This document shows positions 14,491-38,652 of a stretch of 40,881 nt of DNA, in pieces. The notes below the pieces were generated by a model, which did no database searches, had not been told where the DNA came from, and saw only the letters and a program-made list of their open reading frames with translations. The DNA is taken from the IMG/VR virus record IMGVR_UViG_3300037042_001365, positions 1-40,881 of that record; one strand, 5' to 3'. This DNA comes from a virus. Position numbers and translations under genes: made by a program. Each line of letters opens with the position of its first letter. Within the stretch, counting starts at the first letter, position 1.

Positions 14491-16029
14491 ATGGCAGCAA
14501 TATTAGAATTAAAATACTTTAACTCTTTTTGGTTAAAGAAACTAGATACAATAGTAGAAGTAGAAGATACAACAGCGGTTCTAAGTGGTACCGTTGGTGC
14601 GTCTCCTAATATAACTATAACTTTACCAAACGGTGAAATTGGGGTTGGACAGACTGTTAGTTGGGAAATTGGAGAGATTAAAGAAACAGCTTTTGTCTAT
14701 AAGAAAACAGGCACTACAGATACTGAATTTATTTTAAGTGAGCCTGTAACTATACCAGATGGAACAGTTTTAACATTTGGTCCAATAACGAACTTTGATT
14801 ATATACCAGCGGCTTATGCGTCTACTCCAGAATCAGATTGGTTTGTTGAAGAAGCTAGAATTAGAGGCGGGTATAATAATACAAATATTGATTTAGGCGT
14901 TAAGGCTTATATAGTTGAGGACAGATCACAACAGCAACATAGACAAAATTCATTAGTATACTCAGGGGTATTTAATTCAAGAACTGGTGTTAATAAAACA
15001 AACGAGTTTTCGGTTGGGGAAGATATAACAAGAAGTTTGGATCCTGCAAATGGTTCTATTCAAAAATTATATTCAGAAGATACAAACTTAATTGTATTCC
15101 AAGAATTTAAAGTTAGTAATGCTTTAATTGACAAAGATGCTATTTATTCCGCTGAAGGACAGCCAATGACAACATCTGGAGCTCAAGTAATTGGCCAGGT
15201 TCAAGCTTATGCTGGTAACTATGGTATTGGTACTAATCCAGAAAGTTTTGCTGTCTATGGCTTCCGTAAGTACTTTGTTGATAGAAATAGAAATGTAGTA
15301 TTAAGATTATCACAAGATGGTATATCTGAAATATCAGAATATGGTATGGGTGATTTCTTTAGAGATAATCTTTCTGCAATTGGTAATGACGGATTTATAT
15401 TAGGTATGTGGGACATGCATAATAAAGAATATGTTTTATCAATGCAACCTGTAACTGGAACTTACAAAACATTAACTTTTGATGAAGATGTATCAGGTTG
15501 GACAAGTTTCTTCGATTACAGACCAAACTGTGGAGGAAGTTTAAGAAATAACTTTTACACATTTAAGAACGGTGAAATATGGAAACATTATTCTCCGGCT
15601 AATAGTGGATGGGGTAGATTTTATGGTGTTACTTATAATTCATCAGTTGAAGTTATATTTAATCCAGACGTTTCTTTGGTTAAAACTTTTAAAACAATAA
15701 ACTATGAAGGAAGTACTGGTTGGGAAACTTTATCATTTTATACTGACTCTGATGTTTCAGCTCCTATATCTAAAGCATCTTATACAACGACTCTTGCTGG
15801 TTTAGAATTACAATTATTTACTAATTCATTCAAGAGAAAAGAAGATAAATACTTTGCAAACCTTATTAATATTACACCAGCGGCAAATAGTGAAGTTGTA
15901 TGGGGGAATTCAATGACAGGGGTTAAAGGAACAACAGCCGCAGTTAGAATGAATTATTCTAATGCAAGTTTAAACAAAAGTGTACAATTATTTGCGGTAT
16001 CTTCAGATTACATAGACTCATCTTACTAA
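14491..16029 (+). CDS. Tail nozzle/stabilisation-family protein, second component (512 aa)
   Basis: Residues about 150-300 contain NSLVYSGVFNSRTGVNKTNE, DITRSLDPANGSIQKLYSED and AVYGFRKYFVDRNRN, a run of motifs typical of the C-terminal part of the podovirus stabilisation/nozzle protein. Residues about 30-105 look like a separate small beta domain (VEVEDTTAVLSG through VLTFGPI). The mix of WDMHNKEYVLS-type blades fits a beta-propeller. It presumably joins the 1812-aa product in the tail tip. In related phages, as I remember them, these halves can lie in one long chain; here they are encoded as two genes with an AT-rich 53-base spacer between them. There is no sign of a frameshift linking them: the first gene has its own stop and this one has a leader plus ATG. 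Confidence 0.68.
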   Translation: MAAILELKYFNSFWLKKLDTIVEVEDTTAVLSGTVGASPNITITLPNGEIGVGQTVSWEIGEIKETAFVYKKTGTTDTEFILSEPVTIPDGTVLTFGPITNFDYIPAAYASTPESDWFVEEARIRGGYNNTNIDLGVKAYIVEDRSQQQHRQNSLVYSGVFNSRTGVNKTNEFSVGEDITRSLDPANGSIQKLYSEDTNLIVFQEFKVSNALIDKDAIYSAEGQPMTTSGAQVIGQVQAYAGNYGIGTNPESFAVYGFRKYFVDRNRNVVLRLSQDGISEISEYGMGDFFRDNLSAIGNDGFILGMWDMHNKEYVLSMQPVTGTYKTLTFDEDVSGWTSFFDYRPNCGGSLRNNFYTFKNGEIWKHYSPANSGWGRFYGVTYNSSVEVIFNPDVSLVKTFKTINYEGSTGWETLSFYTDSDVSAPISKASYTTTLAGLELQLFTNSFKRKEDKYFANLINITPAANSEVVWGNSMTGVKGTTAAVRMNYSNASLNKSVQLFAVSSDYIDSSY

Positions 16030-18757: not shown

Positions 18758-21700
18758 ATGGCTAATTATTTAAACAAAGAAGGAATATTATATACGCAGG
18801 AAGAAATTGAAGCAGCTGCTTTAGAAAACAATGTTGATGTTGATACAATATTAGCTGATAATGAATTGTCTTTGGAAGGTGAAAAGCCGGGAAAGAAGCA
18901 AAGTGTAGTTGTAAAGAAACCAACAACTGCACAAGAAAAATCAAAATCGGTTTCACCTTCGGGAAATACTTCTTCGGGTTGGAATACTAAAACTAAGCCC
19001 AAAACAATGGGCGAGCAAATTGTAAGTACATTCCAAGAAGAAAAGAAAAACCAACCAAAACCTGTTGATTTTAAAGCTGCTAAACAAAGACTTGCTGCTC
19101 AAGCAGGAGAAGTAGACCCTAGTTCTGTACCTGGTAGTTTTGGTTACAAAACATTTAAAGCTACTAAGAAAAAAGAAGAAGAAAAAGCAAAACAACTAGA
19201 AGAAGAAAAAATTGCATTTGAAGCAAGAACGGCTAGTACCTCATTAAGAAATAATGATGAAGCAAAGAAATGGTTTGAAGATGCTAAAGAAGCTGCAAAA
19301 TTAACAGATGAAGAAACTGTAGGTTTAGATGAATTTATAAATTTAGAAATAGCTAAAAACGGACAAATAGAAAGAGTAGATACATCTGAAGGTAAAAATA
19401 AGGCTCTTATATCAAAAGGCGGTTTTAGCGGAGAGCCAGAGGGTGTTGTTGATCAACCATATCAGGCGTTCCCTGAGCAAGTTAAAAAAATAAAAACTCA
19501 ATTAAAATCTGAAAACTTACTTAATAAATTTTCAGAAGATGAAATATTGCAAAAAGCTGCAGGGTTATGGAAAGTAGAAAATGCAAAAAAAATACAAGAA
19601 AGTAAATTTAGAGACGCTTTAGAAGATACTACAAATATAAGTCAAACAGCAAAAGAAATAGTTAATAATTATACTGTAAAAACTAAAGGTAAAGAAGAAC
19701 TTGACTATGTGAAAAACACAATATTTAAGGAGGGACTGGATAAAAGTGTTGAAAAAAATATTAATGACGTAAATAAGATTGATGAGCAACTAAAACCAAA
19801 AGGATATAAATTTCAAACGCAAGATGAAATAAATACTCAAAATGATCTTATAACAAAGAGAAACACTTTAATTAAAGATTTAGAGGATCTTTCTGAATTA
19901 AAAAATGAAACTTCTAAAAAGATAGTGGCCTCATCAAAAAACATAGATGACTTAAATTTACAAAGTGACATGTTTAGTAGAGATTATTCCTATTCAGGAG
20001 TAGGAAAAAAAATAGCTACTAACTTTAAAATGATGGCTAACGACTTATTAGGGTTTGCTTCATACACATATCAACCTACCGAAATGGTATATGATGCTTT
20101 AAATATTAAGGAAATTACAGGAATTGCAAATCCATTCACGGCTATAAACACTGCATTGTCAGAGAATAAAGCAAGATATGAAGAAGAACTTACTTATAAT
20201 TATGCAAAACCAAGAGAAGGCGGATTAGAAGCAAATTTTGAAAAGGTTGGTGATTTAGTAATAACACAGGCTCCTAATTTAGCATTAATGATATTAACAA
20301 AAGGTGGAAGTGTAGCAGAACAAGCAGCCGCAAAAACGTCTCAATCATTATTAGCTAGAGCTGGTAAATTTACTAAGGACTATTTAACTCTTGGACGCCA
20401 AACAGGTGCGATGGCGGCTGTAGCAACCGGTAGTAAATACCTCGATATGGTTAATGAAGAGCGTAATGGATATTATACAGAAGATGGCGTTTTCGTAAAA
20501 CCAAATTATAATGCAATGCAATTAATTGTAGCCCCTGCTGCGTTTGGGTATGTTGAAGGTATATTTGAAAAGTCTACTGGAAAAATATTAGAAAAGGGTA
20601 AAAACTTTTTAGTTTCTGCAGCAAAAAAAGAACCTATGAAATGGTTTGATTTTGAAGTAGCAACAGGCAAAAAATTTGCTAAGCAAGCGGGTATAAATTT
20701 AGGAGGAGCGTATGCTGAGGAGATACCATCTGAGGTATTCACTACTGTTGGACACAATATACTTGACAAATTTGCTCTTGGTAAAGAGGTAAATTTATTA
20801 GATAATACCGGTGCAACTATAAAAGATACAGGTATACTTACGTCTGTATTAGCCGGAGCTCCTTTAATAGGAGGTGCAATTATAAGACCATTTATGAGTA
20901 GGACTACCGCTCAGAAGCTTAGTGATAATGCTAGAGGGTTAGCTGCTATTTTACATGAACTTGAATTTAATAAAGATTTATCTAATGTACAACAAGAAGC
21001 TTTAGTTAAAAAAGAATCTGTATTAAAAGCAGAAAGTACAACCTTATTAGAAAAAACAATTTCTGATATTGACGCGATGCCTATTGACACATTTAATTCT
21101 ATTAATAAATCAGTTTCTAAAATGGCTGATTTTATTAATAAAGCTAATACCATCAATGAGTCTGATTCAGAATCAAAAGAAACGGATCTAAATGTTCTTA
21201 AAACTAATTATGTTATAGAGCAAACTAAATTAAATACATTAACTAGCGGTATTGAAAATGTTAAAACATTTGGGCAACCATTATCCCCAATAAGCAGAGC
21301 TCAATTAATAGACTTAAATTCTAAAAGAGTAGAGACGTCTTTTAATCCTGATCTTAATGAGGATGAAAAAAAGACCATGCTTAAAAAAATAGAACTACAA
21401 ACAAAAAATATTTATAAAAAAGAAGGTATTGATTTAGGGGAAGCTAGGGAAAAAGAGTTTCAAGAAAATCTTACTGCTGCAAAAAAATTAGGGGAAAGCG
21501 CTAACGTAGAGGTTATATTAGCAAATAACTTAACAGAAGCCAGAACAAAACTAAAAGGTTTAGTTCAACAAAAATTAGTAACAGCTGAAGAAGCAAATAT
21601 ATCTGGTTTTAAAGGAGCAGATGGGGGCATAATAACCAACGATAAAACGGGCAAAAGTTATATTGTAATAAATAAAAGACAAGCAATAGCCACGAAAGCT

Positions 21701-24700
21701 GTGTCTGTCGGTTCTCATGAATTTCTTCATAAACTAATGGAGAAAACATTGAGCAATGTAGATACGCAGATTGAATTAGGAAAACAATTAAGAAATTATT
21801 TATTATCTTCAAACCCTGAATTATACTTAAATGAAAAAGTATTAATTAGACTTGAAGGTAATTATGGCAATAGTACAGAAGGTATTAAAAATGAAGAATT
21901 ATTAACCGTTTTTTCTGATGCACTTATTACTGGTAATGTGAAGTATAATGAATCATTCTTTACAAAATTAGGTGATACTATTAGGAGATACCTTCAAGAT
22001 TTAGGCTTACTAGATATAACATTTGATTCCGGTAGAGATGTGTTCAATTTTATTCGTGACTATAATACTTCAATACAAAAAGGAGGAAGTGAAAATAAAG
22101 CAATACAAAAATTATTTACTTCTGCGGCAAAAGGTAGATTAGTTTCTGAAACAAAAGTGGGACCAAAATCTCCTGCATTTTCAAAATCTATTGAAGATAG
22201 AATGGAAAAGCTAGATTTACAATTATCTAATAATGAAATTGACTGGGACAAGTATGAATTAGAAATGGAAAAACTTGAACAAGAAGAGTTTGAAGAATCT
22301 AAGAAAACATACGAAGAAGAAAAGAAAGCAGTTAAAAAAGAAACAGTTAAAAAGGAGGTTACTAAAAAAGAACCAAGTGAGATAAGCGAAGCTGCTAATA
22401 AAGCTAAAGCTAAATTAGATGCAATTGGTAATGATCCAAAAGGTTTTAATCCAAACAATCCAACTATTTATGATGAGCTAGATAAAATGGTAAAAGTAAA
22501 ATCTAGGAATTATAAAACCTCTAACGGTACAATCATTGATCTTACAAATAAAAACAAAGGTGGATTAGATGGATTCAGCATGGAAGAGATGACAAGTTAT
22601 GTAACAGTGTCAATGCTCCCTTATATACAGAAATTTGATCCTTCTAGGAATGATAGTTTATACGGATATATCAATGCTCAGCTAGCAAATAGAATGAAGG
22701 CCGCTTTAAAATCCGGTCAAGTTGCTGATGTTGTATTTACAGAGGATGTTACGGAAATGACAAAACTTTCCAATGAAGATGTTGAAGTAAAAACACCAAC
22801 ATTACCGGAAAGAAAAAAATATCAAAATATTTTAGAGTCCGGTGTGTTTTCACCTGAAGTAATTGTAGATGTACAAGCAAAAATATTACCTATAATAAGA
22901 ACATTGAAATCTAAAGTAGACGAAAAAACTACACTTAATAGAACCACGGCCCCTATAATCAACGAGATACGTACTGAAATAGGGAAACAAGCTGACATTG
23001 ACATTAAAAGAGCAATGGGCGGAAAGGAAGATGGTCAACTTAGAAAATTCTTATTAACGAATAAAAAACCTGTACTTGAAAACATGACTACTACCTGGTT
23101 AATGGGTAAAGACAACGGTAAAACCGTTTCTGGTGGTATGCCATTTGCTGTTCAAAAAAGAATTAACGGTCAATGGCAAAGTTACCCAGATTGGATTGGT
23201 AAAAAAGTAGATAGAGAATCTGTTGAAACAGATTTAGCAGGCAGAACTTCTGGTGCTGAATTAGTTAGAAGATTACCAAATGTAGTTAACAATGTTACCG
23301 ATGATGTTTTCTTGGATTCAATTATAGACCCAGTAACTGGATTACCATTAAGAGGTAGAAAAGAAGCATTAGCTAAAGCGTTGAGTGAAGAGTTAACGTT
23401 TGATTTAATTTCTGATGATATGTTATCAGGGGGGCCAATTTACCAAGCATTACAAAAAAATCAAGAAATATTAGGAGCAGAAATTGGAAAAGTAACTGTA
23501 GAAAATATAAGCAGATTAGCTGAAAGAGGTAATATTAAATATTCTTTATCAGCGGATATGATGTTAGATATTGAAAATAATTCAGCAGTTTTAGGAAAAG
23601 CAATCGCAAATTTAACTAAAGTTACAGATAGTAGTGTTAAAAAAATACTGGCAAATATATTTGCAGATGATTGGAATGAAAATCAAATAAAAAAAGCTAC
23701 TGAAAGTTTAATTTATGTGTTAAAAAGAAATGAAAAATATTTTGGATCTGATGAACTTATAAATTATGAAGGTAATACAATAGAATATATTTCTAATATT
23801 AGTAAAGAACAAGATTTTGGTAAATCTATTTGGAAACAATTATCTTCTGATGTGGCAGTTGCGGCATTTTATAGAAAGCCAGAAAAAGTTAAAAAGCTAA
23901 AAGAATTAAACCAAGATTTTATGATTGATACTCTTAAAGATTTTGGTGATGTAGAAGGTACAAAAATTCTATATTCTATGTGGGCTCCTACGGTTATAAA
24001 TGGAAATTTTGACATATCCTTATTTCGTATGAAGGACATGGACAAAAGAAGAACCGCTTTTATTGATGAGTTAAATAAAGCTAGAAAAACAGCTTTTGGT
24101 GTAAAAACAAATAATATTTCTGAAAAAGTATTAAAAGAAAAGTATAGAGGTTATGCAAAAGTAAACAAAGTACATTTTAATTATTTTGATGGCACATTTG
24201 ATATAAAAAAAGACAGGTTACGAACAGAAGCTGCTAAAAATTTAACAATATATACGGCTAAGTGGTGGGGTGAAAATTTAAAAGAATTAGAGCCTTCGTA
24301 TCAAGCCGCAATGTTTACTTTATTAGCAAATAATGCCGATAGTGTTGTAAGGTCTGCCGCTCCTGTTGTTGGTATTATAGATGAAGGAATCAAAATGCCT
24401 TATGTATATGAGCATTCTAAACCAGTAAGAGTAGTTTTAGCACAATTAATTGATAAGTATATTAATAAAAATGATAATATTACAGAAGATGAAATATTTG
24501 AAAACTATAAAGTATTAATAGTACCAAAAAAAGTATCTGATATACTAGATAAATCTGGTGTAAAACAGATGATGGATCCATTTTATTTTATAAAAGATAA
24601 AACAGATTTTTCAAGATATGATAGTTTATTTAAAAATAATATTATTCAATCTATTAATATTTTTGAAGCTCAACAACAAAATATACAAAATGAAAAAGCT

Positions 24701-27700
24701 GCTTTAAATAATATATCTCAAAGCAAATTAAGTAAATCAATATCTACAGTATCTGACTTTATAAATACAAATAATTTAAGAAGATTAGATACTGAAACTT
24801 CTTATGAATTACTTGATCAATTAGCAAAAGAAATTGAAAACTATTGGGGAGTGGTTCCTAATGATGTTATTCTTGGGATGAACAGAGCCGTAGACTATGC
24901 TGTTAATATAATAGAAGATCGTGAAGGGTCCGGTTTCTTAATGGCTGCTGTAAATGATGCATTAAACCTAGAAACAGTTAAGTTTGCCGAAAAGCAATTA
25001 AACGAGTTTGTTGAAAACAACAAGCCAAAAGAGCAACAAGCAATCACTAAATTTTCATTAACTTCAAAACAAGATTTGAAATGGAAACAAGGAGATGAGG
25101 ACTTATCAACAAAATTTACAGTAGGCAATATAGATTATAGAATTTCTATGATTGAAACAGCTTACATGGAATATGCCGATGATGTTCAGCAAACATTATT
25201 TGATTTAGTAGAAGAAAATAATCTTGATGAAGACACCACAATAGCAGCGTATGATGGAGAAGCATACAATCTAGAGTTTTGGGATAAAAAACAAGGTAAC
25301 GGAATAACTGGTACCGGCAATGCGGCTGAAGTATTTGGAATAGTAATAAATGGGGTAACAGATAAAATTAAAAAGAAAAATATTGAAGCATTAGTATTTA
25401 CAGCAAAAGAACCTAGCAGAATTAAACTATATAATTCAATGGCCGAAGTTGTTGCAAATAAACTAGGATGGAACGCTTACTATAAAAATGGGGTTTATTT
25501 ATTATCAAAAAAACCTAAAACAATTGGATCAACTGATTTAATTGACAATAACAAGCCAAAAGAAACAATGTATAGCAAATCGTTAGATTTTGAATTCAAC
25601 GATATACTAGAAAGAAACACAAGTGTTGCAGCATTTACCAAAGTATCTGATGTAGTTGCGAAAAGAACTGGTATTAAGAAAACAACATTATCATTCTTTG
25701 TACCACCTTCAGCTGATGACTTTAGAGGTTTAACAACTTATATGTTTGCAGGCAAAGGTAAGCAAGGTGAATTAGATCAAGAATTCTTTGATAAGAACTT
25801 AACTATACCGTATGTTAAAGGTATTAATACTTTAGATTCAGTACGTCAATCTATTAGAAAAGAATATAAAATGTTACTTAATAACTTCCCTGATGTTAAA
25901 AAGAAACTTGAGAAGTTAACACCAGATAAAACTTTTACCTATGATCAAGCTGTTAGGGTTTATCTTTGGAATATTTCCGGTAAAGAAGTGCCAGGTTTAT
26001 CAAGAACAGATAAAAATAAATTAGTATACTTTGTAAAACAAAATCCAGATTTATTAGCTTTTGCTAATGCACTATCTATAACTGGTAGACAAGAAGGTGG
26101 TTGGATTGATCCTTCTACAACTTGGGATAGCGAAACTATTATATCTGATTTACATAATATTACTGAAGGTGCTGGTAGAAAGAGATATCTTGAAGAGTTT
26201 ATAGAAAATGCAGATGCAATATTCACAAAAGAAAACCTAAACAAGATACAATCTATATATGGTACAAATGTAAGAGAAGCTATAGAAGATTCATTATATA
26301 GAATGAAGAATGGTAAGAATAGGCCAGAAGGTACTGATAGAGTAACAAATACTTGGATGAACTGGATTAATGGTTCTACAGCCGCTATTATGTTCTTTAA
26401 TACTAGATCAGCATTGTTACAAACAATATCAGCTATTAACTTCTTAAATTGGAATGATAACAATCCATATATGGCAGGTAAGGCTTTTCTTAATCAAAAA
26501 CAATATTGGTCTGACTTTGCAATGATTATCAATTCTGATAAATTAAAAGAAAGAAGATCTGGATTAAAAGCGGATGTTACTCAAGCTGAGATTGCCAATG
26601 CTGCAAACAGTACTAAAAACAAATTCAATGGAGTTATATCTTATTTACAAAAAATAGGATTTACACCTACGCAAGCTGCGGATAGTTTTTCTATTGCTGT
26701 GAGTGGTGCAACATTCTATAGAAACAGAGTTAATACATATTTGAAAGCAGGAGATACTGTAGAAGCAGCTGAAGAAAAAGCATTCAATGATTTTTCAATA
26801 ATAACTGACCAATCAATGCAATCTGCAGATCCAATGTATGTTTCAAAACAACAAACGACTGCATTAGGACGTCTTATATTAGCTTTTGGTAATACTCCAA
26901 TGCAATATAATAGATTGATTAAAAAAGCTACGTTAGATTTAGCCAATAAGCGCGGAGATTGGAAAACAAATATATCTAAGATTGTATATTACGGGGCATT
27001 ACAGAATATGTTATTCTCATTTTTACAATCTGCATTGTTTATACCATTAGGTTATGATGATGAAGAAGAACCTGATTTTTCTAAAATGACTAAAGAGGAA
27101 AAGAAAGCTTATGAAAAGTTAAAGAAAAAAGGTGAAGATAAAATTACAAACATGATTAATGGTATGGCTGATACTCTATTAAGAGGCTCAGGTGTATATG
27201 GAGCAGCTATTGCAACTGTAAAAAATACAGCAATGGAATACTTCAAACAAGAAGAAAAAGAAATGTTTGCAGATCATGCTTATACGGTATTGGCTTTAAC
27301 AAGTGTATCACCTCCAGTAAGTTCAAAAGCAAGAAAACTTTATGGGGCAATTAGAATTAGTAAGTTTGAAAAAGATGTTATTGCTGAAAGAGGTTGGGAA
27401 ATTACAAGAGATGGTAAATTAAATCTTGCGCCTAACTATAGAATAGTAGGTAATGTAACCGTAGCAACAACAAATTTACCTTTAGATAGGGTTATTGAAA
27501 AAGTTAATAACATGTCCGAAGTAATGGACTCTAGAAATACTGCCTTACAAAGAACCGCATTAGCATTAGGATGGAAAGATTGGGAACTTAACGTGAAGAA
27601 CGAAGAGAATGAAACCATTAAAGCAACTGCTAAGGTAAAACGTAAAGAAGAAGGTATTGAGAAAGCTGTTGAAACTAGAAAAGCAAATAAAGAAGCTGAA

Positions 27701-27805
27701 AAAGAAAAGTTCAACAAATTGTCTATTCAAGAGAAAATTGCTTTTAGATTAAAGAAAGCAAAAGAAAAAAGAGAAAAAAGAATAAAGAAAAGAAAAATGG
27801 GTTAG
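18758..27805 (+). CDS. Giant polyvalent internal virion protein (3015 aa) with zincin motif, sigma-like and GNAT-like regions
   Basis: This is by far the largest gene here. In order it shows: a charged helical N-terminus (1-400); hydrophobic stretches around 500-565 and 690-715; an HExxH zinc-peptidase motif H987-E988-F-L-H991 with a candidate third ligand at E1046/E1047; a Glu/Lys-rich spacer (1150-1215); a region at about 1270-1325 resembling sigma factor region 2 (KFDPSRNDSLYGYINAQL); a GNAT-like domain at about 2095-2260; and a conserved hydrophobic C-terminal part (about 2525-2770) ending in a very basic tail (KEKREKRIKKRKMG). Short FSKS/YSLS/FSLT-type tags recur between domains. As last gene of the ejection set it probably enters the cell with the DNA, like T7 gp16 or other polyvalent proteins. 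I found no DxDxD RNA-polymerase motif. Enzyme activities are inferred from motifs only. Confidence 0.75.
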   Translation: MANYLNKEGILYTQEEIEAAALENNVDVDTILADNELSLEGEKPGKKQSVVVKKPTTAQEKSKSVSPSGNTSSGWNTKTKPKTMGEQIVSTFQEEKKNQPKPVDFKAAKQRLAAQAGEVDPSSVPGSFGYKTFKATKKKEEEKAKQLEEEKIAFEARTASTSLRNNDEAKKWFEDAKEAAKLTDEETVGLDEFINLEIAKNGQIERVDTSEGKNKALISKGGFSGEPEGVVDQPYQAFPEQVKKIKTQLKSENLLNKFSEDEILQKAAGLWKVENAKKIQESKFRDALEDTTNISQTAKEIVNNYTVKTKGKEELDYVKNTIFKEGLDKSVEKNINDVNKIDEQLKPKGYKFQTQDEINTQNDLITKRNTLIKDLEDLSELKNETSKKIVASSKNIDDLNLQSDMFSRDYSYSGVGKKIATNFKMMANDLLGFASYTYQPTEMVYDALNIKEITGIANPFTAINTALSENKARYEEELTYNYAKPREGGLEANFEKVGDLVITQAPNLALMILTKGGSVAEQAAAKTSQSLLARAGKFTKDYLTLGRQTGAMAAVATGSKYLDMVNEERNGYYTEDGVFVKPNYNAMQLIVAPAAFGYVEGIFEKSTGKILEKGKNFLVSAAKKEPMKWFDFEVATGKKFAKQAGINLGGAYAEEIPSEVFTTVGHNILDKFALGKEVNLLDNTGATIKDTGILTSVLAGAPLIGGAIIRPFMSRTTAQKLSDNARGLAAILHELEFNKDLSNVQQEALVKKESVLKAESTTLLEKTISDIDAMPIDTFNSINKSVSKMADFINKANTINESDSESKETDLNVLKTNYVIEQTKLNTLTSGIENVKTFGQPLSPISRAQLIDLNSKRVETSFNPDLNEDEKKTMLKKIELQTKNIYKKEGIDLGEAREKEFQENLTAAKKLGESANVEVILANNLTEARTKLKGLVQQKLVTAEEANISGFKGADGGIITNDKTGKSYIVINKRQAIATKAVSVGSHEFLHKLMEKTLSNVDTQIELGKQLRNYLLSSNPELYLNEKVLIRLEGNYGNSTEGIKNEELLTVFSDALITGNVKYNESFFTKLGDTIRRYLQDLGLLDITFDSGRDVFNFIRDYNTSIQKGGSENKAIQKLFTSAAKGRLVSETKVGPKSPAFSKSIEDRMEKLDLQLSNNEIDWDKYELEMEKLEQEEFEESKKTYEEEKKAVKKETVKKEVTKKEPSEISEAANKAKAKLDAIGNDPKGFNPNNPTIYDELDKMVKVKSRNYKTSNGTIIDLTNKNKGGLDGFSMEEMTSYVTVSMLPYIQKFDPSRNDSLYGYINAQLANRMKAALKSGQVADVVFTEDVTEMTKLSNEDVEVKTPTLPERKKYQNILESGVFSPEVIVDVQAKILPIIRTLKSKVDEKTTLNRTTAPIINEIRTEIGKQADIDIKRAMGGKEDGQLRKFLLTNKKPVLENMTTTWLMGKDNGKTVSGGMPFAVQKRINGQWQSYPDWIGKKVDRESVETDLAGRTSGAELVRRLPNVVNNVTDDVFLDSIIDPVTGLPLRGRKEALAKALSEELTFDLISDDMLSGGPIYQALQKNQEILGAEIGKVTVENISRLAERGNIKYSLSADMMLDIENNSAVLGKAIANLTKVTDSSVKKILANIFADDWNENQIKKATESLIYVLKRNEKYFGSDELINYEGNTIEYISNISKEQDFGKSIWKQLSSDVAVAAFYRKPEKVKKLKELNQDFMIDTLKDFGDVEGTKILYSMWAPTVINGNFDISLFRMKDMDKRRTAFIDELNKARKTAFGVKTNNISEKVLKEKYRGYAKVNKVHFNYFDGTFDIKKDRLRTEAAKNLTIYTAKWWGENLKELEPSYQAAMFTLLANNADSVVRSAAPVVGIIDEGIKMPYVYEHSKPVRVVLAQLIDKYINKNDNITEDEIFENYKVLIVPKKVSDILDKSGVKQMMDPFYFIKDKTDFSRYDSLFKNNIIQSINIFEAQQQNIQNEKAALNNISQSKLSKSISTVSDFINTNNLRRLDTETSYELLDQLAKEIENYWGVVPNDVILGMNRAVDYAVNIIEDREGSGFLMAAVNDALNLETVKFAEKQLNEFVENNKPKEQQAITKFSLTSKQDLKWKQGDEDLSTKFTVGNIDYRISMIETAYMEYADDVQQTLFDLVEENNLDEDTTIAAYDGEAYNLEFWDKKQGNGITGTGNAAEVFGIVINGVTDKIKKKNIEALVFTAKEPSRIKLYNSMAEVVANKLGWNAYYKNGVYLLSKKPKTIGSTDLIDNNKPKETMYSKSLDFEFNDILERNTSVAAFTKVSDVVAKRTGIKKTTLSFFVPPSADDFRGLTTYMFAGKGKQGELDQEFFDKNLTIPYVKGINTLDSVRQSIRKEYKMLLNNFPDVKKKLEKLTPDKTFTYDQAVRVYLWNISGKEVPGLSRTDKNKLVYFVKQNPDLLAFANALSITGRQEGGWIDPSTTWDSETIISDLHNITEGAGRKRYLEEFIENADAIFTKENLNKIQSIYGTNVREAIEDSLYRMKNGKNRPEGTDRVTNTWMNWINGSTAAIMFFNTRSALLQTISAINFLNWNDNNPYMAGKAFLNQKQYWSDFAMIINSDKLKERRSGLKADVTQAEIANAANSTKNKFNGVISYLQKIGFTPTQAADSFSIAVSGATFYRNRVNTYLKAGDTVEAAEEKAFNDFSIITDQSMQSADPMYVSKQQTTALGRLILAFGNTPMQYNRLIKKATLDLANKRGDWKTNISKIVYYGALQNMLFSFLQSALFIPLGYDDEEEPDFSKMTKEEKKAYEKLKKKGEDKITNMINGMADTLLRGSGVYGAAIATVKNTAMEYFKQEEKEMFADHAYTVLALTSVSPPVSSKARKLYGAIRISKFEKDVIAERGWEITRDGKLNLAPNYRIVGNVTVATTNLPLDRVIEKVNNMSEVMDSRNTALQRTALALGWKDWELNVKNEENETIKATAKVKRKEEGIEKAVETRKANKEAEKEKFNKLSIQEKIAFRLKKAKEKREKRIKKRKMG

Positions 27806-28026: not shown

Positions 28027-29895
28027 CTATACAACTTCACAATTACCTCCTCCACATGCGGCTGAATCCGCAAAGTTAGTATTATCTTGTATCTCTATTA
28101 CTTTAGATAGATCAACATCTTTTAACGTTGTCATCATTTGTTCGTAAACTTCTTTGGTACAATCTTCAAATGGAGTTTGTTTATATGTACCGCCATTATA
28201 TGGCAAAACAGATAATCCATTATAGTATTCTTTATTAGCCCACATCCATTCACCTACAATTTTCCATTCATCATCTCTTACTGAAACGGTACAAGAAACA
28301 TTATGAGTATTATTACCTTTATCATGACCAGTCTTAACCCAATCTCTAGATATAAGTTTTACTCTTTCTAATAAATCTAATGTAGATTCATATCTTGTTA
28401 TAGCTCCTTCTGGTGCTTTTTGTGGCACAGAAATTACTGACTGTAATGTTGGATTAAAATATTCATCTTCTAATAATTCTGGATGATTTATTGCAAGATA
28501 GGAATAGATTGCTTCATTCTTGCCTAAACGCATACGGCGAATATAATAGTCGTTATGCCAAGCGTGAATACCGCTAGAAGTGCCCAGAACAAGGCTAGTA
28601 GTTCCGGCCGGCTTAACTGCGGTGGTTCTGGCTGCTTTGTTGATATTAAGAGCCTCTGCAATAATATTATTTGTTTCCTTAACAATTTGTGCTGCTTCTT
28701 CATAATTTAATTTTAAGTTAGATTCTGATGCAATGCCAGTCATGGATACACCAAGTAATGCGTCTTTTTCTGTGTTCTTTCTCCATATATCTCGAAGATA
28801 ATGAAAGTCGGAATATGCTGCCTGTAATGTTCCTAAGAATGAAGCTGCGGATGATCTAGCATTGAAATCTTCTTGATTCTCAATGTTTGACATATTAATT
28901 TCTGTTAAGTTACAGAATTGATAAGGTCTTAATGCAATCTCACAACAAGGATTAGTTCCCCAATCTTTATCATTAGTAAGATAAATACCAGGTTCCCCTG
29001 ATCCAGATGCTTCAATACGTTCCCATACTTTATCAAATGTTTTCTTATCAATCTTATGGCGTACTAAAACAACAGAGTTATTAGCTCTACCTCTTTGAGA
29101 ATTGTTTTCCCACCAGCTACCAGCTTTGCAGTTTAACATTGCAGTACTATCTAAATCAAATAATGAAATCATTGCTGCTCTTCTAATTCCACCTGCTAGA
29201 ACAGCATCGGCAATATGACACTGAATATCATGACATTCAATATCTGTTAATTTAGATCTATCTTCTTTTTCACGAAGTATAGCTTCAATTTTAACTAATG
29301 CCAATCTTAATGGTTCTGGTCCTGGTGCTTTACCACCTGCTGTTACAAGCAATGCACCTTTTTGTCTAATATCAGAAAGATCAAATTCAATATGTGAAGT
29401 TAATTCACCAGTATATGATTTGAACAATGTCTTGATTGCATCAGCCCAACCAATTATACTATCTTGTACAACATAACGTTTCTTACGATCATAGTTTGGT
29501 TTTCTTATTTCAGGTAGTTTATCAATGTTGTGATTCTGGACTGAATACCCAACACCAGTACCTCCAAGAAGTAAAAACATAGTTTCAGAAAAACTACGGA
29601 TATTATCGACAGGCAAAAAAGCGCAATTATAAATGCGAGCATTATTGAGTTCAACAGCTTTACCACCAAATTGGAGGCTTCGCATGGACGGAAGAACTTT
29701 TTTATTAAAGACAAAATTTTTGTATACTTGTTCAATTGATTCTTTCATTTGTGGAAATTTGGTGATATGCATCTCCATATTCCTGGTTACTAATTCTTCC
29801 CACGTTTCTCTACGCTCTTTTGATGGAACGTATTTTGCATATTTTGTATATACGGTAATATCACTTAAAATTTGTTTGTCTAGGCTTAGGCTCAT
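28027..29895 (-). CDS. nrdJ: Ribonucleoside-triphosphate reductase, adenosylcobalamin-dependent (class II)
   Basis: The enzyme reduces ribonucleotides to deoxyribonucleotides for phage DNA synthesis using a B12-derived radical. The 622-residue protein has the monomeric class II layout: C91 in NCAFLP and C328 in FCNLTEIN as the redox pair, the thiyl-radical cysteine C317 and E319 in NPCCEI, the substrate-loop segment AGTTSLVLGTSSGIHAWH, and a C-terminal CGGGNC shuttle pair (C614, C619) for re-reduction by thioredoxin. It is somewhat shorter than the roughly 740-residue Lactobacillus enzyme. No NrdB-type radical subunit or activase is encoded nearby, as expected for class II. The start lies 1 base after the preceding stop. 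It is the last gene of the - strand module. The host or its surroundings must provide cobalamin. Confidence 0.93.
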   Translation of the reverse strand: MSLSLDKQILSDITVYTKYAKYVPSKERRETWEELVTRNMEMHITKFPQMKESIEQVYKNFVFNKKVLPSMRSLQFGGKAVELNNARIYNCAFLPVDNIRSFSETMFLLLGGTGVGYSVQNHNIDKLPEIRKPNYDRKKRYVVQDSIIGWADAIKTLFKSYTGELTSHIEFDLSDIRQKGALLVTAGGKAPGPEPLRLALVKIEAILREKEDRSKLTDIECHDIQCHIADAVLAGGIRRAAMISLFDLDSTAMLNCKAGSWWENNSQRGRANNSVVLVRHKIDKKTFDKVWERIEASGSGEPGIYLTNDKDWGTNPCCEIALRPYQFCNLTEINMSNIENQEDFNARSSAASFLGTLQAAYSDFHYLRDIWRKNTEKDALLGVSMTGIASESNLKLNYEEAAQIVKETNNIIAEALNINKAARTTAVKPAGTTSLVLGTSSGIHAWHNDYYIRRMRLGKNEAIYSYLAINHPELLEDEYFNPTLQSVISVPQKAPEGAITRYESTLDLLERVKLISRDWVKTGHDKGNNTHNVSCTVSVRDDEWKIVGEWMWANKEYYNGLSVLPYNGGTYKQTPFEDCTKEVYEQMMTTLKDVDLSKVIEIQDNTNFADSAACGGGNCEVV

Positions 29896-37893: not shown

Positions 37894-38652
37894 TTAAAGA
37901 AAATCAAGTACTTGTGAGGAATCAACGTTATTAATTAATTTAGCGATTGCTTGCTTTTTTAATTCGTAAACTCTTACATAAGAACTTTTACCTTGGAAGT
38001 TTAATTGTTCTGCAATTGCTACAGCGGAATGTTTATCACAATCTAAACCGTAACTTAATCTTAGCACATCGTATTCTTCTTGATTCAAATGTCTTTTTAA
38101 TAATGAAGTAAGATAAGCATTCATAATACATATATTATATGGTTCAGAATCATCTTTAACTTGATATAACATATTCTCATCGTCTTCATCATTAAATTGT
38201 TCGTCAATGCTTAAGAATATAGAATTGAAAAACATTGCAACCATTTCTTTATTCTGACCGTTATCTTTTCTAATTTCAATTAACTTATGCTCTGGAAGTT
38301 TAATGCTACCTCTGTTGATGTCTAATGCTCTTCTAATCGAGCCTTTAATTCTTTTTGATAAGAATGACTTTAACGTTTTTTCTATGTCCTTAGAATCGTT
38401 TAATTGTGTCCAATCTAATCTATTGACTGCTTGTATTAATCCATAACTTCCTTCTTGTATTAGATCTGTAATATCCATTACTCCTGCTGCTTGTTGTGAT
38501 GTTGAGAATTTTCTAGATATGTTTTCAACTAATGGTAAAAACTTGTTAATCAATTCATCTCTTGTATATTCATTCCATGCTTTATTAATTGGTTGTCCAA
38601 CAATAACATCTTTTTTATATCTTAGGTAATTTTGTAAGTTGTAACTTTTCAT
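37894..38652 (-). CDS. Phage sigma-70 family RNA polymerase sigma factor
   Basis: The 252-residue protein would redirect host RNA polymerase to phage promoters. Region 2 is clear: LVENISRKFS (41-50), MDITDLIQEGSYGLIQAVNR (59-78, region 2.1-2.2) and FLSKRIKGSIRRAL (97-110, region 2.3-2.4). DINRGSIKLPEHKLIEIRK (111-129) looks like region 3. Region 4 is seen as LNQEEYDVLRLSYGL (189-203) and a helix-turn-helix AVAIAEQLN... KKQAIAKLI (210-240). Its start overlaps the stop of the HTH gene by 4 bases (ATGA), so the two are translated together. Probable target promoters are those of the + strand virion genes, where no host-type -7 box is visible. Confidence 0.9.
   Translation of the reverse strand: MKSYNLQNYLRYKKDVIVGQPINKAWNEYTRDELINKFLPLVENISRKFSTSQQAAGVMDITDLIQEGSYGLIQAVNRLDWTQLNDSKDIEKTLKSFLSKRIKGSIRRALDINRGSIKLPEHKLIEIRKDNGQNKEMVAMFFNSIFLSIDEQFNDEDDENMLYQVKDDSEPYNICIMNAYLTSLLKRHLNQEEYDVLRLSYGLDCDKHSAVAIAEQLNFQGKSSYVRVYELKKQAIAKLINNVDSSQVLDFL

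Follow-up and report, generated by a model that had tools for sequence, protein, structure and literature searches.

The locus analyzed here raises a clear question, namely whether a stretch of 120 residues from a putative virion protein binds the RNA polymerase of the host. It lies in the genome of a Bacteroidota podovirus, recovered as IMG/VR record IMGVR_UViG_3300037042_001365, of which positions 1 to 40,881 were analyzed (the window, 40,881 nucleotides in full). A first-pass annotation of the sequence had marked a segment at 22560-22760, inside the ORF of a giant protein, as having the layout of sigma-70 region 2, and had suggested that it is injected with the DNA and captures host RNA polymerase for the first transcripts. 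We asked what the segment is, what carries it, and which role is best supported.

The giant protein and its genomic setting

The genes upstream of the giant ORF encode terminase, portal, virion structural, muzzle and tail-fibre proteins, and the giant gene is the last in the run. The relevant features are as follows.

14491..16029, plus strand: crAss-type muzzle protein, synteny marker (PF25729, E 1.3e-11; PF25731, E 6.9e-8)
18758..27805, plus strand: ORF of the giant 3015-aa protein, closing the virion operon (ORF call)
21605..22087, plus strand: HExxH (putative zincin-like peptidase) region; motif and downstream E/D conserved in aligned relatives
22367..22726, plus strand: sigma region-2 (gp55-like) module, residues 1204-1323 (AF2, Foldseek/VIA, PF04542, PHROG 234 / 1740, profile-profile comparison)
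22727..23437, plus strand: conserved, mainly helical follow-on region, residues 1324-1560 (identity 0.67-0.79 across 13 giants)
23555..24697, plus strand: hypervariable cassette, residues 1600-1980 (identity about 0.13 between close relatives over most of its length)
25058..25567, plus strand: second hypervariable cassette, residues 2101-2270 (identity 0.12-0.25)
25571..27667, plus strand: conserved C-terminal region, residues 2272-2970, common to nearly all giants compared (blastp map and conservation)

The whole 3015-aa protein gave no convincing match to a Pfam or PHROG family. Related giants display the same order of parts, with an HExxH region followed by the sigma module, hypervariable cassettes and the conserved C-terminal region. 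An HExxH with a downstream E/D was located 231-442 residues ahead of the core motif of the module in 30 of 35 giants; in this phage, the motif reads HEFLH (residues 987-991, nt 21716-21730) and is upstream of the sigma module. Pfam gave no match to the zincin-like MPTase domain in this region, which from the motif alone is probably a peptidase. In the giant of one close relative (L006), an HExxH of a different type from that of its neighbours (SHEIGHHEITK) was observed at about residue 1200, as if the peptidase part had been swapped and the sigma module retained.

The AlphaFold2 (AF2) model of the follow-on region was of low confidence. A 319-aa model showed no sigma match past residue 1323, and the GINS/CMG structures listed for the residues beyond this point were discarded as long-helix matches of low value. 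The parts adjoining both hypervariable cassettes are close to 0.8 identical between close relatives. The two cassettes resemble swappable effector cargo, and a variable cassette in a related giant (L152:1606-11799, residues 2295-2446) contains a zeta-toxin / AAA_33 kinase-like domain (Pfam E 4.9e-9). The sigma module belongs to the conserved and not to the variable parts of the giant, with dN/dS values of 0.03-0.12 as compared to 0.18-0.50 for the whole protein, indicating that it is under strong purifying selection. The C-terminal region is likely structural and is a candidate for the part that serves packaging or ejection.

The conservation and blastp maps and the gene context fit the plan of polyvalent proteins, which are giant and multidomain, with variable cassettes and virion genes as neighbours, suggesting that the giant is a probable ejected protein of this type. 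Its presence in the virion is predicted because of the synteny and because elemo phages have, in the corresponding position, a giant without homology to it that is labelled a structural protein. Taken together, we consider it likely that the protein is packaged and ejected. Beyond the operon, a B12-dependent-type ribonucleotide reductase is encoded on the minus strand (28027-29895 of the window), and genes for thymidylate synthase, MazG and a Toprim/DnaB-like helicase are located further along the same minus-strand block.

The module has the predicted fold of sigma region 2

AF2 was run without templates on the 134-aa alignment and predicted a confident four-helix domain (pLDDT 88, pTM 0.81), with the following helices.

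22388..22429, plus strand: helix 1, residues 1211-1224, at the position of the helix preceding region 2.1 (DSSP on the AF2 model)
22460..22507, plus strand: helix 2, residues 1235-1250, equivalent to region 2.1 (AF2 model)
22580..22633, plus strand: helix 3, residues 1275-1292, equivalent to region 2.2 (AF2 model; gp55 register)
22658..22714, plus strand: helix 4, residues 1301-1319, equivalent to region 2.3-2.4 (AF2 model)

In the Foldseek comparison of the module model with the PDB, all of the 50 matches listed were sigma factors, at E-values of 0.1-1.7; on the domain-2-only entry 8b3z, the TM-score (TMt) was 0.63-0.67 and the rmsd mostly 2.8. VIA-align against the PDB ranked T4 gp55 first, both with a longer model (Z 7.7) and with a short model (Z 7.2), and the alignment to gp55 begins at model residue 10. 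Again, all 50 matches listed for the short model were sigma factors. The Z-scores were below 8 throughout, and helical bundles readily give middling Z. Because the E-values and Z-scores are modest, the fold assignment rests on the specificity of the lists. Phage sigma factors also made up most of the named top matches for the module in a viral structure library.

Thus, the predicted fold of the module is the four-helix bundle of sigma region 2, and not one unlike it. The layout proposed in the first-pass annotation is borne out by the predicted fold and the structure matches, as well as by the Pfam, PHROG and profile comparisons described below. The segment that it had marked is real and beyond chance, and covers helices 3 and 4 only, the domain itself extending over approximately 22367-22726. 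The motif noted at the outset corresponds to residues 1274-1313 of the giant ORF, with SMEEMTSYVTVSMLPYIQKF starting at residue 1274 (nt 22577) and DPSRNDSLYGYINAQLANRM at residue 1294 (nt 22637). We conclude with high confidence that the module is a genuine sigma region 2 domain.

Probable sequence kinship with gp55 and cellular sigma factors

Single-sequence scores of the module against sigma factors are all weak. The Pfam model Sigma70_r2 matched the isolated fragment with an E-value of 0.057 over 49 residues (fragment 68-116 to profile 19-67, equal spans), and the whole-record scan placed the match at 22568-22714 with an E-value of 0.002. A scan of 36 phage records with PF04542 returned stand-alone sigma genes and nothing else apart from weak matches to nine giant ORFs, each at the module; the best of these nine was 7.9e-5 (in the record of L098), and all nine were below the curated cut-off of 24 bits. 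Searches of PDB sequences with the module alignments retrieved no sigma factor because the module sequence is too diverged for this library.

Profile-profile comparison with 31 Bacteroidota sigma factors gave a P-value of 1.1e-3, which improved to 2.9e-4 with a deeper alignment of the module family (35 sequences), in line with true kinship. The observed score of 25.7 was reached by none of 497 column shuffles (best 16.1) and none of 500 block shuffles (best 24.1), and the reversed module alignment scored 11.3. A profile match to region 2 above background, on which the original proposal hinged, was thus obtained, with agreement from PF04542 at the module and from the PHROGs. Searched over 296 Bacteroidota genomes, the module profile returned one phage contig, one protein of 247 aa and nothing else; the latter is an ECF sigma factor (Pfam sigma factor at 1.8e-9).

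Among the 38,880 PHROGs, the T4 gp55 family (phrog_234) was matched by the most members of the module family (13 of 38, best E 0.002), and another match was to an RNA polymerase sigma factor family (best 0.0008). An hhalign comparison with a profile of T4 gp55 and ten relatives yielded a score of 32.2 (P 1.1e-4), as compared to a maximum of 29.1 in 300 block shuffles. For reference, gp55 itself scored 23.7 against the same set of cellular sigma factors. The registers of the module and the gp55 family are ungapped, with EEMTSYVTVSMLPYIQKFDPSRNDSLYGYINAQ of the window beside EDMICDGIENCIQYINNFDPEKSKNPFAYFTQ of a cyanophage, and the 2.2-2.3 segment likewise aligns without gaps (EEM/EDM...FDP). 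As sequence evidence for membership of the gp55 family these matches are suggestive, and the module is probably closer kin to gp55 than to cellular sigma factors.

The phage also encodes a sigma factor of its own, in which the parallel segment pointed out earlier, FLSKRIKGSIRRAL, was indeed found.

37894..38652, minus strand: stand-alone sigma factor of 252 aa with region 2 and, weakly, region 4 (PF04542, E 2.5e-5; phrog_351; weak PF04545)

Distribution of the module among phages

Iterated IMG/VR searches identified the module in giant ORFs of about 30 uncultured phages, most of them approximately 1400-3500 aa long. Members of the family are up to 95% identical, and the most distant ones have little in common besides the core F..xN.SL(Y/F)GY. 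No cultured phage carrying the module or the C-terminal region was retrieved by nucleotide and protein searches at the sensitivity used, and no module was detected by HMM or Pfam in the giants at the corresponding place in elemo, Panino and ctfjg026. The elemo phages are related by their portal, and the 11-kb gene that closes the same operon is annotated as a structural protein and is without the module. Giants of 3700-3900 aa end the same operon in L109 and L110 (ctfjg026 and elemo phages, with related portals); these have no detectable sequence similarity to the module or the C-terminal region of the module family, and one of them carries DUF3293 (E 1e-12).

Two records deserve a comment. 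In L039 / L105 (IMGVR_UViG_3300046167_000556), several stops break the frame of the module just past LNSLP, reflecting either a sequencing error or a broken copy. A contig from a Crocinitomicaceae MAG (L040, NZGF01000066.1) has a giant ORF of 2222 aa and a module sequence identical to that of the viral contig L037, and is considered a phage contig because both the ORF length and the module sequence are the same.

Residues at the polymerase and promoter interfaces

The family-invariant pattern N.SL.GY (N1298, S1300, L1301, G1303 and Y1304) occupies the 2.2/2.3 turn and the beginning of helix 4. We take Y1304 to occupy the place of Y430 in sigma70, which stacks on the flipped -11 base. Helix 3 of sigma factors and gp55 is the one that holds the beta' clamp helices, and the -10 element is read by helix 4 (PMC7892883). 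The three residues by which gp55 contacts the clamp helices are the acids E70, D74 and E77, and the window is acidic only at the first of these (E1277). The second, equivalent to D74, is acidic (E or D) in 19 of the 35 members and Y in the clade of this phage (Y1281 in the window); the third, equivalent to E77, is lost in the window. Region 2.2 is still sigma-like in several distant members, as exemplified by NMVQETITGL and ELLQETLYQLL, and the relatives L098 and L113 retain the QE motif.

The tryptophan wedge of sigma70 is absent. A search of the giants for region 4 (PF04545) gave one partial match of 20 residues in one giant, and a diverged domain could escape such a search. Neither T4 late (TATAAATA) nor Bacteroidota (TAnnTTTG) promoter words were enriched in the window, the start of the early gene cluster being located outside it. 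The DxDGD polymerase motif was found in none of the window ORFs or giants, and a search for T7-type polymerases was uninformative because the controls were silent too.

Proposed role and alternatives

An injected sigma function is proposed here because of the position of the gene in the genome, the polyvalent-type architecture and the precedent of gp55. The giant protein would most likely be packaged in the particle and enter the cell alongside the DNA, and the peptidase-like domain ahead of the module would perhaps free it by cleavage. The module would then dock on the beta' clamp helices of the host RNA polymerase and present the polymerase to -10-type sequences of the incoming genome, such that transcription could begin before the sigma gene of the phage is expressed. 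The action on host polymerase would, on this reading, be early. Without its C-terminal tail, gp55 binds polymerase, forms an open complex and gives basal transcription (PMC7892883), which would in principle also be open to a module made of region 2 only.

Since one of the three clamp acids of gp55 is kept, a blocking or a non-transcriptional role is also possible. In the former case, the module would be a mimic of sigma region 2 that occupies the beta' clamp helices, displaces the host sigma factor and lowers host transcription without initiating at specific promoters. The fold and the docking face are as in sigma, neither region 4 nor the aromatic wedge for promoter melting was found, and the phage encodes a separate full sigma factor for specific initiation, all of which agree with blocking. 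However, the most invariant patch, N.SL.GY, is on the side that faces DNA in sigma and not solely on the clamp-binding face, and initiation by gp55 relies on this same minimal domain (PMC7892883). We consider the blocking explanation unlikely.

In the latter case, the fold would have been domesticated, with loss of polymerase binding, for another role such as binding of single-stranded or phage DNA during packaging or ejection. This would be consistent with the degenerate acidic clamp contacts in the clade of this phage and with the C-terminal region, the other conserved part of the protein, being likely structural. Set against it are the sigma-like region 2.2 of the distant members and the strong purifying selection indicated for the module, and we regard it as quite unlikely. 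Finally, although each score is weak by itself and helical bundles resemble a wide range of folds at low Z, a chance similarity of an ordinary helical bundle is very improbable, given that sigma factors filled the 50 listed matches in both Foldseek and VIA, that the shuffles fail, and that Pfam, the PHROGs and the reverse genome search concur.

We judge it reasonably likely that the module acts on host polymerase, by recruiting or blocking, and with moderate confidence we favour overall an injected gp55-like module that recruits the polymerase to the incoming genome. A broader proposal is put forward tentatively. In it, the giants of a large group of uncultured Bacteroidota phages would be virion-borne and self-processing and contain a gp55-like module, such that the particle would deliver a promoter-recognition subunit that captures host polymerase.

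The start of transcription in phages without a virion RNA polymerase is usually credited to the host sigma factor alone. If the proposal is true, a particle-borne sigma module would let the phage bias the host polymerase from the first minute, and the gp55 type of minimal sigma factor would reach beyond late transcription and take on a fused, injected form. Injected polymerases and injected enzymes that modify polymerase would then be joined by a third injected strategy of transcription. In the open-access literature searched, we came across no description of an ejected protein with a sigma domain.

Comparison with known systems

The closest counterpart of the module is T4 gp55, which likewise has a region-2 domain with a four-helix fold, and is the best structural match. 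It lacks region 4, for which the giants gave just the one partial match. However, gp55 is a free protein of 185 aa that is synthesized inside the cell and functions late, together with gp33 and the gp45 clamp, whereas the module belongs to a much larger protein, of 3015 aa, encoded in the virion operon. The module has lost two of the three acids that contact the clamp helices, and the helix-loop-helix that follows H4 in gp55 is not seen in the module model, which is disordered past helix 4. The gp55 family further has a C-terminal sliding-clamp motif.

The giant protein resembles the polyvalent proteins (PMC5512222) in being a giant multidomain protein encoded beside virion genes, with a region that carries HExxH and is putatively a peptidase, with variable cassettes, and with a C-terminal part that is conserved. 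It differs in that no Pfam polyvalent-protein model matches it, and the word sigma is absent from Iyer et al. 2017 (PMC5512222).

T4 Alt, an injected ADP-ribosyltransferase, is similar in being a virion protein that acts on host RNA polymerase as infection starts, but it is a polymerase-modifying enzyme and not a sigma-like subunit. The virion RNA polymerases N4 gp50, crAss gp47-50 and P23-45 TMP-RNAP are giant injected proteins encoded with or after the tail genes, and serve first transcription (PMC10172136, PMC10770324, PMC5512222). After the muzzle gene (gp44) of phi-crAss001 come genes for two cargo proteins, gp45 and gp46, and for gp47, gp49 and gp50 of the RNA polymerase, and all of these proteins are present in virions (PMC10172136). 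The position of the giant after the muzzle gene matches that of these cargo and RNA polymerase genes. Unlike in the virion RNA polymerases, no polymerase motif was found in the giant, and the predicted module would instead borrow the polymerase of the host.
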